NCBI GenBank assembly: GCA_900321995.1
Contig: ONYG01000144.1
Span: forward strand, 1 to 36,164
DNA length: 36,164 bases
DNA from: an uncultured Methanobrevibacter sp.
Lineage (GTDB): Archaea; Methanobacteriota; Methanobacteria; Methanobacteriales; Methanobacteriaceae
Reading direction: 5' to 3'
Shown: one piece after another, positions 9,812 to 14,765 of the stretch
Layout: every line of letters begins with the position of its first letter
Numbering within the stretch: the stretch's first letter is position 1
Made by a program: the position numbers and the translations under genes
Notes under the pieces: model-generated
What the model was told of the DNA's origin: nothing
Databases searched by the model: none
What the model saw: only the letters and a program-made list of their open reading frames with translations

Positions 9812-9933
9812 TAGTTTTAATTCTATTTAATTACATATTTTCCTTTTTCTTAGTGAAATTGTGTCATTTTGGTATCGATTATTTGCATTTTATCTATGAT
9901 ATTTTGCATCTTGTTAATGAGGGCAAGTATTCA

Positions 9934-9945
9934 TTTATATATTAA
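9934..9945 (+). promoter_or_regulatory. Likely TATA box of the 2TM-domain gene
   Basis: TTTATATATTAA matches the archaeal TATA consensus. Transcription would begin near 9965, about 30 bases before the first ATG. Confidence 0.5.
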
Positions 9946-9996: not shown

Positions 9997-10299
9997 ATGG
10001 AAAAAAATTTGTGTGATAATATGTCTGAGGAAAATTTATATAGTTTAGCGGAAAAGAGAGTGGATGAAAAAATTGGATTTTATCATCATTTATACAGTTT
10101 TATTGCAGTTAACCTAATTCTTGCAGTTATTAATGTCCTTTTTTCAAAAGGTAGCTGGTGGTTTTTATGGGTTACTTTCTTTTGGGGAATTGGTTTAGTT
10201 TCCCATTTTATAAAAACATTCATTGTTTTTGAAAAGTTTGAGGAAAAGCATAGGGATAAAATGATCGAAAAGGAAATGGAAAAATTGAGAAAGGAGTAA
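9997..10299 (+). CDS. 2TM-domain membrane protein
   Basis: A 100-residue protein with two membrane helices, about residues 30-50 (LYSFIAVNLILAVINVLFS) and 55-78 (WWFLWVTFFWGIGLVSHFI). The pattern RVDEKIGFYHHLYSF before helix 1 and the WGIGLVSHFIKTF around helix 2 match the 2TM domain (PF13239). That domain is found alone or attached to bacterial sensor kinases of the LytS/LytTR type. The tail is charged and helical (EKFEEKHRDKMIEKEMEKL). The start is uncertain: ATG 9997 (AGGATG context) or ATG 10021, which follows GTGATAAT and would give 92 residues. It precedes a LytTR/DUF3021 pair on the same strand, so a signalling role is possible. Confidence 0.8.
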   Translation: MEKNLCDNMSEENLYSLAEKRVDEKIGFYHHLYSFIAVNLILAVINVLFSKGSWWFLWVTFFWGIGLVSHFIKTFIVFEKFEEKHRDKMIEKEMEKLRKE

Positions 10300-10374
10300 T
10301 TTTTTAAAAAATATTTGTTAGTTCTGTTTTAATAAATAGGATTTTTAGTTAAGTTTTGCATAAAAATAAAATTA

Positions 10375-10384
10375 TTTATATGGG
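10375..10384 (+). promoter_or_regulatory. Likely TATA box of the small exported protein gene
   Basis: ATTTATATGG follows an A-rich stretch that could serve as BRE. It would direct transcription from about 10405, roughly 30 bases before ATG 10437. Confidence 0.4.
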
Positions 10385-10436
10385 TCTTTAATGAAAGTAT
10401 TTAATAAGTCTAAAAATTATTTTTGGGGTTATTGAA

Positions 10437-10889
10437 ATGGATAAAAAAATTATTTTGCCGATTGTAGTTCTATTAGTAATTTTGGCCTGTGCCTTAACTT
10501 ATTCATTTAGCGAAACAAATGGTATAGAAGATAAAACAAGTTTTACAGTATCTTCTGAAGGTCCAATTCCTTTATCTGAAATCATTGAAGACATTAAAAC
10601 TAGAGAATATTATGAAGGCTATGACAATGAAACCCTTGCTTGGATGGAATCCTTAGGAGACAAGCAGGTATTTTCAGGGGATGGAATATTCCTTATCATG
10701 AGTGATTATGATGCTCAAAAAATTCCTTCTGAATATGTTACTGATGTGTTCATACATGACTTTGTAGACTGTAATGTGATAGAAAATCATTCATTAGGTG
10801 ATATTAAGTATCCTAAGGATGTATTTTATGTAAAAAACGTAGTTTATAAAGGTCAAGAAATCGTTGAGATTCCAGGTGGGGGAGCCTAA
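10437..10889 (+). CDS. Small exported or membrane-anchored protein, unknown
   Basis: 150 residues. MDKK is followed by a hydrophobic stretch (IILPIVVLLVILACALTYSF, residues 5-24), a signal peptide or anchor, and then an acidic extracytoplasmic domain of about 120 residues. No domain is recognised. The sequence ILAC within the hydrophobic stretch is only a poor lipobox. The ending (VVYKGQEIVEIPGGGA) looks complete. GGGG sits about 9 bases before the ATG. It has its own promoter and lies 135 bp upstream of the LytTR gene on the same strand. A cell-surface partner of that regulatory system is possible but unproven. Confidence 0.75.
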   Translation: MDKKIILPIVVLLVILACALTYSFSETNGIEDKTSFTVSSEGPIPLSEIIEDIKTREYYEGYDNETLAWMESLGDKQVFSGDGIFLIMSDYDAQKIPSEYVTDVFIHDFVDCNVIENHSLGDIKYPKDVFYVKNVVYKGQEIVEIPGGGA

Positions 10890-10904
10890 TAATAAAACAT
10901 TATT

Positions 10905-11005
10905 ATTTTAGTTTTTTAAGTGCATTATCTAATAATTTTTTAGTTTTTTAATTTTTAGTTTTAGTATTTAGTTTTTAGTTAATTGCACTATCTAATTTTA
11001 TTTTT
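10905..11005 (+). repeat. Repeated AGTT motifs and a 63-bp direct repeat before the LytTR gene
   Basis: TGCATTATCTAATAATTTTTT at 10921 recurs imperfectly as TGCACTATCTAATTTTATTTTT at 10984. Between and before them, AGTT occurs at 10910, 10942, 10957, 10970 and 10977, mostly within TTTAGTTTT. Some pairs are 20-21 bases apart, near the spacing of LytTR half-sites. In a T-rich gap this may be chance. Confidence 0.4.
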
Positions 11006-11024
11006 TTATTACTTGTTGATATTT

Positions 11025-11486
11025 ATGAAAGTTGATTTATTTATTTCAAGAGATATTGAAGAGCCTTATGCTGAAATCCATTCAGATTCTTTAACAGACA
11101 ATATCCAAAAAGCTATGGATCTTTTGGAAAATGATAATGTTGAAGAGGAATACGATGGCAACAGTTCTATTTTGGCAGTAAAGAAAGGGCAAGACATTGT
11201 TCTTTTAGACTTTAAGGATATCTACATGATTAGGGTGGAAGATAAGCAAACAAAGGTTTATACAGAAAATAGGAATTATCTGGTTAAGAAGCCTCTGTAT
11301 CAAATAGAAGAGAATCTTAATTCTGATTTTGTTAGAATATCCAAGTCTGTAATTGTGAATCTTAGAAAAATAGAGCGTGTAGCACCATCATTAAGAGGCA
11401 TGATGTTTATTGAACTTAAGAATGGTTTGAAGGACAATATTTCAAGAAAATATTTGTCTGACTTTAAAAAGGCTTTAGACTTATGA
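11025..11486 (+). CDS. LytTR-family DNA-binding transcription regulator
   Basis: A 153-residue regulator. Residues ~1-50 are acidic and lack the receiver domain seen in most LytTR response regulators. Residues ~52-150 form a LytTR domain: DIVLLDFKDIYMIRVEDKQT, a YTENRNYLVKKPLYQIEENL stretch, then FVRISKSVIVNLRKIERV and FKKAL. The F-R-I-S-K-S-x-I-V-N-L-x-K-I core is diagnostic. ATG 11025 is chosen because the longer frame from TTG 10983 adds only a hydrophobic run from T-rich spacer. The gene is followed after 114 bp by a DUF3021-like membrane protein, the arrangement of bacterial LytTR regulatory systems where a membrane partner restrains the regulator. LytTR regulators are mostly bacterial, so transfer from Firmicutes is plausible. 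Confidence 0.88.
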   Translation: MKVDLFISRDIEEPYAEIHSDSLTDNIQKAMDLLENDNVEEEYDGNSSILAVKKGQDIVLLDFKDIYMIRVEDKQTKVYTENRNYLVKKPLYQIEENLNSDFVRISKSVIVNLRKIERVAPSLRGMMFIELKNGLKDNISRKYLSDFKKALDL

Positions 11487-11531
11487 TAATGGCTTTTTTA
11501 TAGTTTAATGAGACTTTAGACTAATGATTAT
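11473..11531 (+). repeat. 41-bp duplication of the 3' end of the LytTR gene
   Basis: CTTTAGACTTATGATAAT at 11473, which includes the last codons and the TGA stop, recurs at 11514 as CTTTAGACTAATGATTAT. The second copy is noncoding. Confidence 0.65.
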
Positions 11532-11600
11532 TATTAAATTTATGGGATTATTAATCGATTTACTTTAATTGTTTCTAATTGTTTATGTAAAGGTGGTTAT

Positions 11601-12029
11601 ATGAAAACTGAGTTAATAGAAAGATTGGCATTAGGAGCATTTGTAGGCTGTTTTATTGTTATGCTTGTAATGGTTCTTGGATCCTATGCTAAAGGTCCTT
11701 TGAATGTGTCATTCAATGGGGTGGAAATAATAAATGCATTTTTCGGCTCAATTGTTGTTGGTTGGGCTTTTTCATTAACTGGCATAATTTATGATAGGGA
11801 AGAGGTTCCATTTCCACTTCAAATCATATTCCAAATGGGAATTGGAATGACTGTATTATTCATTATGGCTATTTACTTGCAATGGATGCCTATTAATTTA
11901 GGCATTGGTCCAATAATCACTTGGGTTGTCATTGCAATTATATTCGCTATAGTGTTTTGGTTTGGATTTTTCATTTATTACGCTCTTTTAGCAAGAAATA
12001 TGAACAAAAAAATAGAGTTGTCTAAATGA
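11601..12029 (+). CDS. DUF3021-like four-helix membrane protein
   Basis: A 142-residue integral membrane protein with four predicted helices at about residues 9-31, 44-63, 72-94 and 103-130, and a short basic tail (LLARNMNKKIELSK). The first helix after KTELIERLALGAFVGC, the FGSIVVGWAFSLTGIIYDREE segment after helix 2, and MGIGMTVLFIMAIYLQWMP match the layout of DUF3021 proteins, which sit beside LytTR genes in Firmicutes and act as membrane inhibitors of the regulator (HdrM, BrsM type). GGTGGTTAT precedes the ATG by about 7 bases. It is likely cotranscribed with the LytTR gene. The signal sensed is unknown. Confidence 0.8.
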   Translation: MKTELIERLALGAFVGCFIVMLVMVLGSYAKGPLNVSFNGVEIINAFFGSIVVGWAFSLTGIIYDREEVPFPLQIIFQMGIGMTVLFIMAIYLQWMPINLGIGPIITWVVIAIIFAIVFWFGFFIYYALLARNMNKKIELSK

Positions 12030-13999: not shown

Positions 14000-14129
14000 C
14001 TTTTTTATAAAATTTAGGTGTTTTCACCTTTATTTTTTTTAATTTTTGTCTATTCTATTTCTGTATTGCTTTTTATTATTTTATGAAAATTTTTATTTGT
14101 CTTACTGATTTTTGATTTGGGTTTTTATT

Positions 14130-14765
14130 ATGAAAGAGATTGATTTTGATCTGGAAAACAATCCATTTATGGATTTTTTATCTTCAAGATATTCTATGAC
14201 TGCAAAGGTTGATGTTGAAAAATTATGGAATTTTTCTAAAGAAAAAGACTTGTCTTTTTTTGTTTTATCATTAGGTGCATTATTGAATGCTGTTAACAAG
14301 GTTCCTGTCTTAAGACGCAGAATAATTAATGGAAAAGTTATTGAATATGACTATTTGGATGGAGTCACACCATTAATGGATGAGGAAAAGGGCATTTTTA
14401 GAGAAATGAGAGTGGATGTTCCTGAAAAGTTTGATAATATTCTAGATTGGCATGACTATGTCAGAGAGCTCCAACAGAAGGTCTTATATGGTGAGAATCA
14501 TGATTTCAATTTGGATATGATGATGAGGGATGAGGCGAATATTGTAAATCTTTCTTGCATTCCTTGGGTTGATTTTGATTCAATGACAAATTGTGTAGCT
14601 TCAAGCAATCAGATACAGCCTTTAATCACTTGGGGAAAAGTTAATGATGATTATAAGATGGCTGTGTCCATTACAGTTAATCATATCTTTGTAAATGGTC
14701 GAGATATTGCTTACTTTTTCGAGCATCTTCAGGATAATGTGAATGATATTTTATCTATGGATTAA
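14130..14765 (+). CDS. Chloramphenicol acetyltransferase homologue with altered active site
   Basis: A 211-residue protein of the CAT fold, which uses acetyl-CoA and works as a trimer. Matches include SRYSMTAKVDVEKLW near residue 19, SCIPWVDFDSMTNC near 142, PLITWGKV near 164, and the C-terminal catalytic segment SITVNHIFVNGRDIAYFFEHL at 180-200. The normal motif is HHxxxDG with the second His catalytic. Here it is NHIFVNG: His185 is kept, the first His is Asn184 and the structural Asp is Asn189. It probably acylates another small molecule and is unlikely to be a classical resistance enzyme. ATG 14130 is used; TTG 14112 would add six hydrophobic residues. No ribosome site is clear. Confidence 0.85.
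   Translation: MKEIDFDLENNPFMDFLSSRYSMTAKVDVEKLWNFSKEKDLSFFVLSLGALLNAVNKVPVLRRRIINGKVIEYDYLDGVTPLMDEEKGIFREMRVDVPEKFDNILDWHDYVRELQQKVLYGENHDFNLDMMMRDEANIVNLSCIPWVDFDSMTNCVASSNQIQPLITWGKVNDDYKMAVSITVNHIFVNGRDIAYFFEHLQDNVNDILSMD

Follow-up and report, generated by a model that had tools for sequence, protein, structure and literature searches.

The 36,164-bp stretch analysed here (the window, one contig of a Methanobacteriaceae genome assembly of 1.9 Mb in 272 contigs, 78% complete) carries a genuine archaeal LytTR Regulatory System (LRS), a class described by Zou 2018 (PMC6193735), where some archaeal members were already noted. Its core, a receiver-less LytTR regulator and a DUF3021 membrane protein, seems to be a switch fitted to archaeal promoters. 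In the window's genus it would act on its own operon, and in related methanogens on a membrane ABC transporter as well. From the sequence comparisons, the new features are an LRS-type operator separated by exactly 19 bp from the archaeal TATA box that follows it, a 2TM protein as an archaeal addition to the LRS, and an operator at an ABC transporter promoter in a related genus as a predicted regulon in trans. The methanogens offer an archaeal set that is conserved, with its operator defined, its promoter geometry fixed and its targets named, so that the way an activator of bacterial type works at a TBP/TFB promoter is open to direct testing. The hosts are rumen and gut methanogens, in which envelope-stress and efflux control has, to our knowledge, been little studied. 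Three papers mention both LytTR and Methanobrevibacter, and by title and abstract none of them looks relevant.

The gene set and its bacterial counterparts

An ORF check of the window confirmed all four plus-strand genes of 9997-12029 (Table 1). Three of the proteins matched Pfam families far above the cut-offs: the 2TM protein PF13239 (E=4e-25, 88.1 bits, cut-off 24.8), LytTR PF04397 (E=8e-25, 87.3 bits, cut-off 22.6) and the DUF3021 protein PF11457 (E=4.7e-20, 72.5 bits, cut-off 24.7). The domain calls of the preliminary description were therefore borne out, including the DUF3021 match at 11601-12029 on which it had staked its reading. For the exported protein, no Pfam or NCBIfam family was matched. 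The operator and TATA box ahead of these genes (9885-9939) had been missed by the preliminary description. The start of the 2TM gene is more likely at 10021 than at the 9997 given earlier, because the relatives begin with MSE.LY..AEKRVDEK and share the leader GTGTGAT..ATG. The intergenic gaps inside the operon are 115-137 bp, so internal promoters are possible and the operon may not be a single transcript.

Table 1 Features of the LRS operon and its promoter in the window
Feature	Position	Strand	Remarks
Operator direct repeat 1, GCATTTTAT	9885..9893	+	9-12-9 repeat kept in 47/55 LRS promoters
Operator direct repeat 2, GCATCTTGT	9906..9914	+	As repeat 1; 12-bp spacer
TATA box core TTTATA of the operon promoter	9934..9939	+	19 bp after repeat 2
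2TM-domain membrane protein, first gene of the operon	10021..10299	+	PF13239; start by comparison with relatives
Small exported protein, judged a passenger outside the system	10437..10889	+	Within the operon only in G000 (window genome) and G019
lytTR, DNA-binding regulator, short N-terminal segment, receiver-less	11025..11486	+	PF04397; model resembles LytTR structures
DUF3021 four-helix membrane protein, predicted LytTR restrainer	11601..12029	+	PF11457; adjoins LytTR in nearly all regions read

The LytTR protein starts with an ATG, comprises 153 residues without a receiver domain and is the sole LytTR match of the 78% complete assembly. Its structure model resembles the LytTR structures 3d6w and AgrA with DNA, the N-terminal segment being of low confidence. 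The DUF3021 protein was modelled as four long helices (mean pLDDT 89.5), for which a fold search gave no match at E<=0.001. Since LytTR has no receiver and no sensor kinase was found among the neighbouring genes scanned, a LytTR-type two-component system such as AgrA, LytR or ComE was ruled out. The pair corresponds to an LRS: a soluble LytTR-family regulator without a receiver domain is directly followed by a small multi-helix membrane protein, which is DUF3021 or DUF2154 in this class.

By 2018, characterised LRS were confined to Streptococcus mutans (PMC6193735). HdrRM and BrsRM, named for comparison in the preliminary description, are of the right kind, and an inhibitor role of DUF3021 is predicted here by analogy to them. 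These and the other S. mutans systems share with the window a receiver-less LytTR gene followed by that of a small membrane protein, which in some is DUF3021, and an operon promoter preceded by 9-bp direct repeats with a spacer of about 12 bp. The predicted methanogen system differs in its archaeal TATA promoter in place of -35/-10 elements and in the extra 2TM gene in front of the operon. Some bacterial LRS of PMC6193735 are linked to ABC transporters, whereas the methanogen transporter is unlinked and predicted to be controlled in trans. Table 3 of Zou 2018 includes one LytTR and membrane-protein pair from a different phylum of Archaea, TALC_RS05580/05575 of Thermoplasmatales archaeon BRNA1, for which direct repeats were proposed. 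The repeats given there are dissimilar and had been positioned relative to -35/-10 hexamers of the bacterial kind. The nearest homologues found were LytTR-DUF3021 pairs of Clostridia (Kineothrix alysoides L109, Clostridiales L102, Lachnospiraceae), which have the same order and 34-57% identity to the query locus L066, but in most of them the two genes abut or overlap. The 2TM gene was found in 0 of 27 bacterial LRS loci.

Downstream of the operon, window positions 14112-14765 encode a CatA-like O-acetyltransferase (PF00302, 51 bits) that falls short of the NCBIfam cut-offs set for named CatA families and whose gene is kept near the LRS in several genomes of the window's genus.

Operator, promoter and proposed mechanism

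The repeats and the TATA box of the window promoter follow one another at fixed distances that recur in the relatives. The pattern GCAYYT-N15-GCAYYT matched the window once, at the operator, with 0.12 matches expected. A motif-free scan of 55 upstream regions, covering repeat distances of 12-35, showed the 21-bp distance far above shuffled sequences in three groups (86%, 46% and 57% of the loci against 4-5% when shuffled). In genus g1 a second peak was seen at 13 bp, which is a separate repeat. With the motif named, a clear repeat pair was found in 47 of the 55 LRS promoters, always 21 bp apart, and in 44 of these 47 the TATA box started exactly 19 bp after repeat 2. No clear consensus site at the scored geometry was found in five distant lineages.

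A weight matrix for operator plus TATA box, trained on the LRS promoters alone, scored 34.3 at the window operator and 6.9 at the next best site of the 36-kb window. Its median score fell from 28.7 to 4.4 or less when other repeat spacers were used and was lower at every other TATA gap. The operator pattern without the TATA box was rejected as too loose, giving 11 matches in the own genome against about 6 by chance, a figure derived from the window rate of 0.12 per 36 kb.

Bacterial LRS operators are 9-bp direct repeats about 12 bp apart (PMC6193735), and the methanogen operator has the same repeat length and spacer. In two g8 loci the operator reads ACCACTTAG-12-ACAACTTAT, which is similar to the ACCACTTAC repeats of bacteria; the repeat of Listeria lmo0984, GCATCTTAG, resembles many methanogen repeats. 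Elsewhere in the window, TGCATTATCTAA / TGCACTATCTAA form a repeat about 63 bp apart ahead of lytTR (10920-11000), and the related ATTATCTAA lies after the operon TATA box (9958) and is also present in many relatives of the genus.

We consider it likely that LytTR activates its own operon via the repeats and is restrained by DUF3021. LytTR would bind the two 9-bp repeats and, once bound, activate the TATA promoter just downstream, which would drive 2TM, lytTR and DUF3021 in a positive feedback. At rest, the four-helix DUF3021 protein would keep LytTR at the membrane, and a signal sensed there would release it. In a related genus LytTR would extend its activation to a MacB/FtsX ABC transporter, and to a methyltransferase in some of the species; these predicted targets would fit an envelope-stress or efflux response. 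We infer the binding, activation, inhibition, signal and 2TM role, and likewise the sequestration of LytTR at the membrane, by which HdrRM is reported to act according to the title of Xie 2020 as cited in PMC13384398. In the window's genus the only clear operator is that of the own operon, so 2TM as the first gene may be the main output.

In an alternative reading, LytTR would be a repressor, or DUF3021 a co-activator, sensor or transporter in place of an inhibitor. The inhibitor role is demonstrated solely for the S. mutans systems (PMC6193735), and other membrane-bound regulators, HigX and BcrR, need their membrane part for activity (PMC13384398). We regard this as unlikely, since the gene pair and its order are those of an LRS and the operator lies upstream of the TATA box, not over it. 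At archaeal promoters, a position ahead of the TATA box is the usual one for an activator.

A predicted regulon in trans

In most g9 genomes a second conserved site was found with the pattern including the TATA box, one mismatch being allowed. It precedes a leaderless operon that encodes a MacB_PCD/FtsX permease together with an ABC ATPase. The matrix found the operator at this ABC promoter in all 25 LytTR-positive g9 genomes read, with scores of 16.7-39.1, and found no operator site for the ABC relatives of genus g1, which are more distant. In 24 of the 25 promoters the distance from the end of repeat 2 to the start codon is 47-48 bp, the start codon being taken as the start site of the leaderless gene; the single outlier reflects the start coordinate used. 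This distance is close to the bacterial one by our own count from the spacings in PMC6193735.

Of eight LytTR-negative genomes, five (G007, G008, G083, G064, G087) have a decayed ABC site or none. The other three, G053, G067 and G093, keep it intact; as they are 81-91% complete, their LytTR may have been missed. In genomes at least 95% complete, it was present in 19/19 with LytTR (6 judged from pattern matches, the rest by matrix) and in 0/4 without (p=1e-4), a Fisher test that, like the others, is optimistic because the species are related. The exact pattern occurred in 64/84 LytTR-positive and 4/55 LytTR-negative genomes, a count that includes the own site of the LRS operon and is for this reason less telling than the ABC test; the reversed pattern gave zero in 139/139 genomes.

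These data also bear on the idea that the repeats are bound by another, unlinked Methanobacteriaceae regulator and co-occur with lytTR by shared ancestry. The binding of LytTR is itself a sequence-based prediction, and G001, G053, G067 and G093 have sites with no LytTR found. We rate this idea as improbable, as the repeat length, the 12-bp spacer and the placement match bacterial LytTR operators and the ABC operator is decayed or absent in those LytTR-negative genomes that are the most complete, which belong to at least two genera. In G001 (84% complete) the exact operator-plus-TATA match (L236, G001:C251:1375) lies ahead of a permease that is MacB-like and 41% identical to the query.

A third site, less frequent, lies ahead of a class I methyltransferase gene, after which a further 2TM gene was seen in one case. 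The standalone 2TM loci read had no operator except in G049, where 2TM follows the operator-driven methyltransferase. For the window's genus, no second target common to several genomes was found, the regulon of the own genome having been sought by pattern only; the remaining matches have 1-2 mismatches, save one exact site in G025:C151.

Conservation and origin

LytTR and DUF3021 were each found in 84 of the 139 Methanobacteriaceae genomes, and DUF3021 was the next gene downstream of LytTR in nearly all regions read. Outside this family, no DUF3021 was found among the 152 genomes of the phylum searched. In most relatives read, one or two 2TM genes lie directly upstream of lytTR: in the window's genus, one g6 genome, the large genus g9 (often two in tandem, a few bases from each other and from lytTR) and 4 of the 6 Methanosphaera-type (g12) regions. 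The pair with 2TM thus keeps its order across Methanobrevibacter-like and Methanosphaera genomes. In the regions read of Methanovirga-, Methanobinarius- and other deep lineages, 2TM was absent upstream of lytTR. One Methanovirga-type pair (L062, G127:C123) is followed by an ABC-type ATPase gene, like ABC-linked bacterial LRS.

The neighbours that the preliminary description expected beside LytTR were accordingly conserved for 2TM and DUF3021, not for the exported gene. The latter lies within the operon solely in the window genome and G019 among the genomes mapped; its homologues occur in 53 genomes, some without LytTR, and elsewhere occupy unrelated sites, with no operator found near them at the seven loci checked. 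The exported protein was rejected as a module member on these grounds and judged from the comparisons to be a passenger. The earlier proposal of one sensing module of 2TM, exported protein, LytTR and DUF3021, which has the gene order in the window and G019 in its favour, is largely refuted by this conservation test and is very improbable.

A tree was built of LytTR proteins, 26 of them archaeal and 29 from bacteria or phages. One branch (95/84) separates the archaeal sequences from all others, and they cluster (99/87) within Clostridia next to a Clostridiales MAG, Kineothrix, a Ruminococcus MAG and a fecal phage contig. The simplest reading would be one transfer from Clostridia, a later addition of 2TM and repeated losses; the root was not inferred, so the direction is taken from how widely the gene is spread in bacteria. 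A single event, common to the family lineages with the gene and reaching ancestors of gut methanogens, has the support of the tree. Of the suggested gain from gut Firmicutes, the clostridial origin stood and a recent gain by this archaeon did not. We give equal credence to a wider reading and to its contrary: that archaea adopted a bacterial activator family, which would work directly with a TBP/TFB promoter at a nearly bacterial distance, with an own archaeal regulon and 2TM as third membrane partner or output.

LytTR genes broken by stop codons or frame breaks were seen in G035:C3:55757-56191, G072:C136 and G097:C5, and such DUF3021 genes in G002:C26 and G014:C25; either the system is apparently on its way out in several lineages, or the breaks arose in assembly. 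LRS-type LytTR genes also occur on phage records, L321 (MT835490, 'Bacteriophage sp.', human feces) and L322 (Streptococcus satellite phage Javan72). L321 is the fecal contig near the archaeal clade and a possible vehicle of the transfer. The Javan records label their LytTR gene 'glutamate synthase'.
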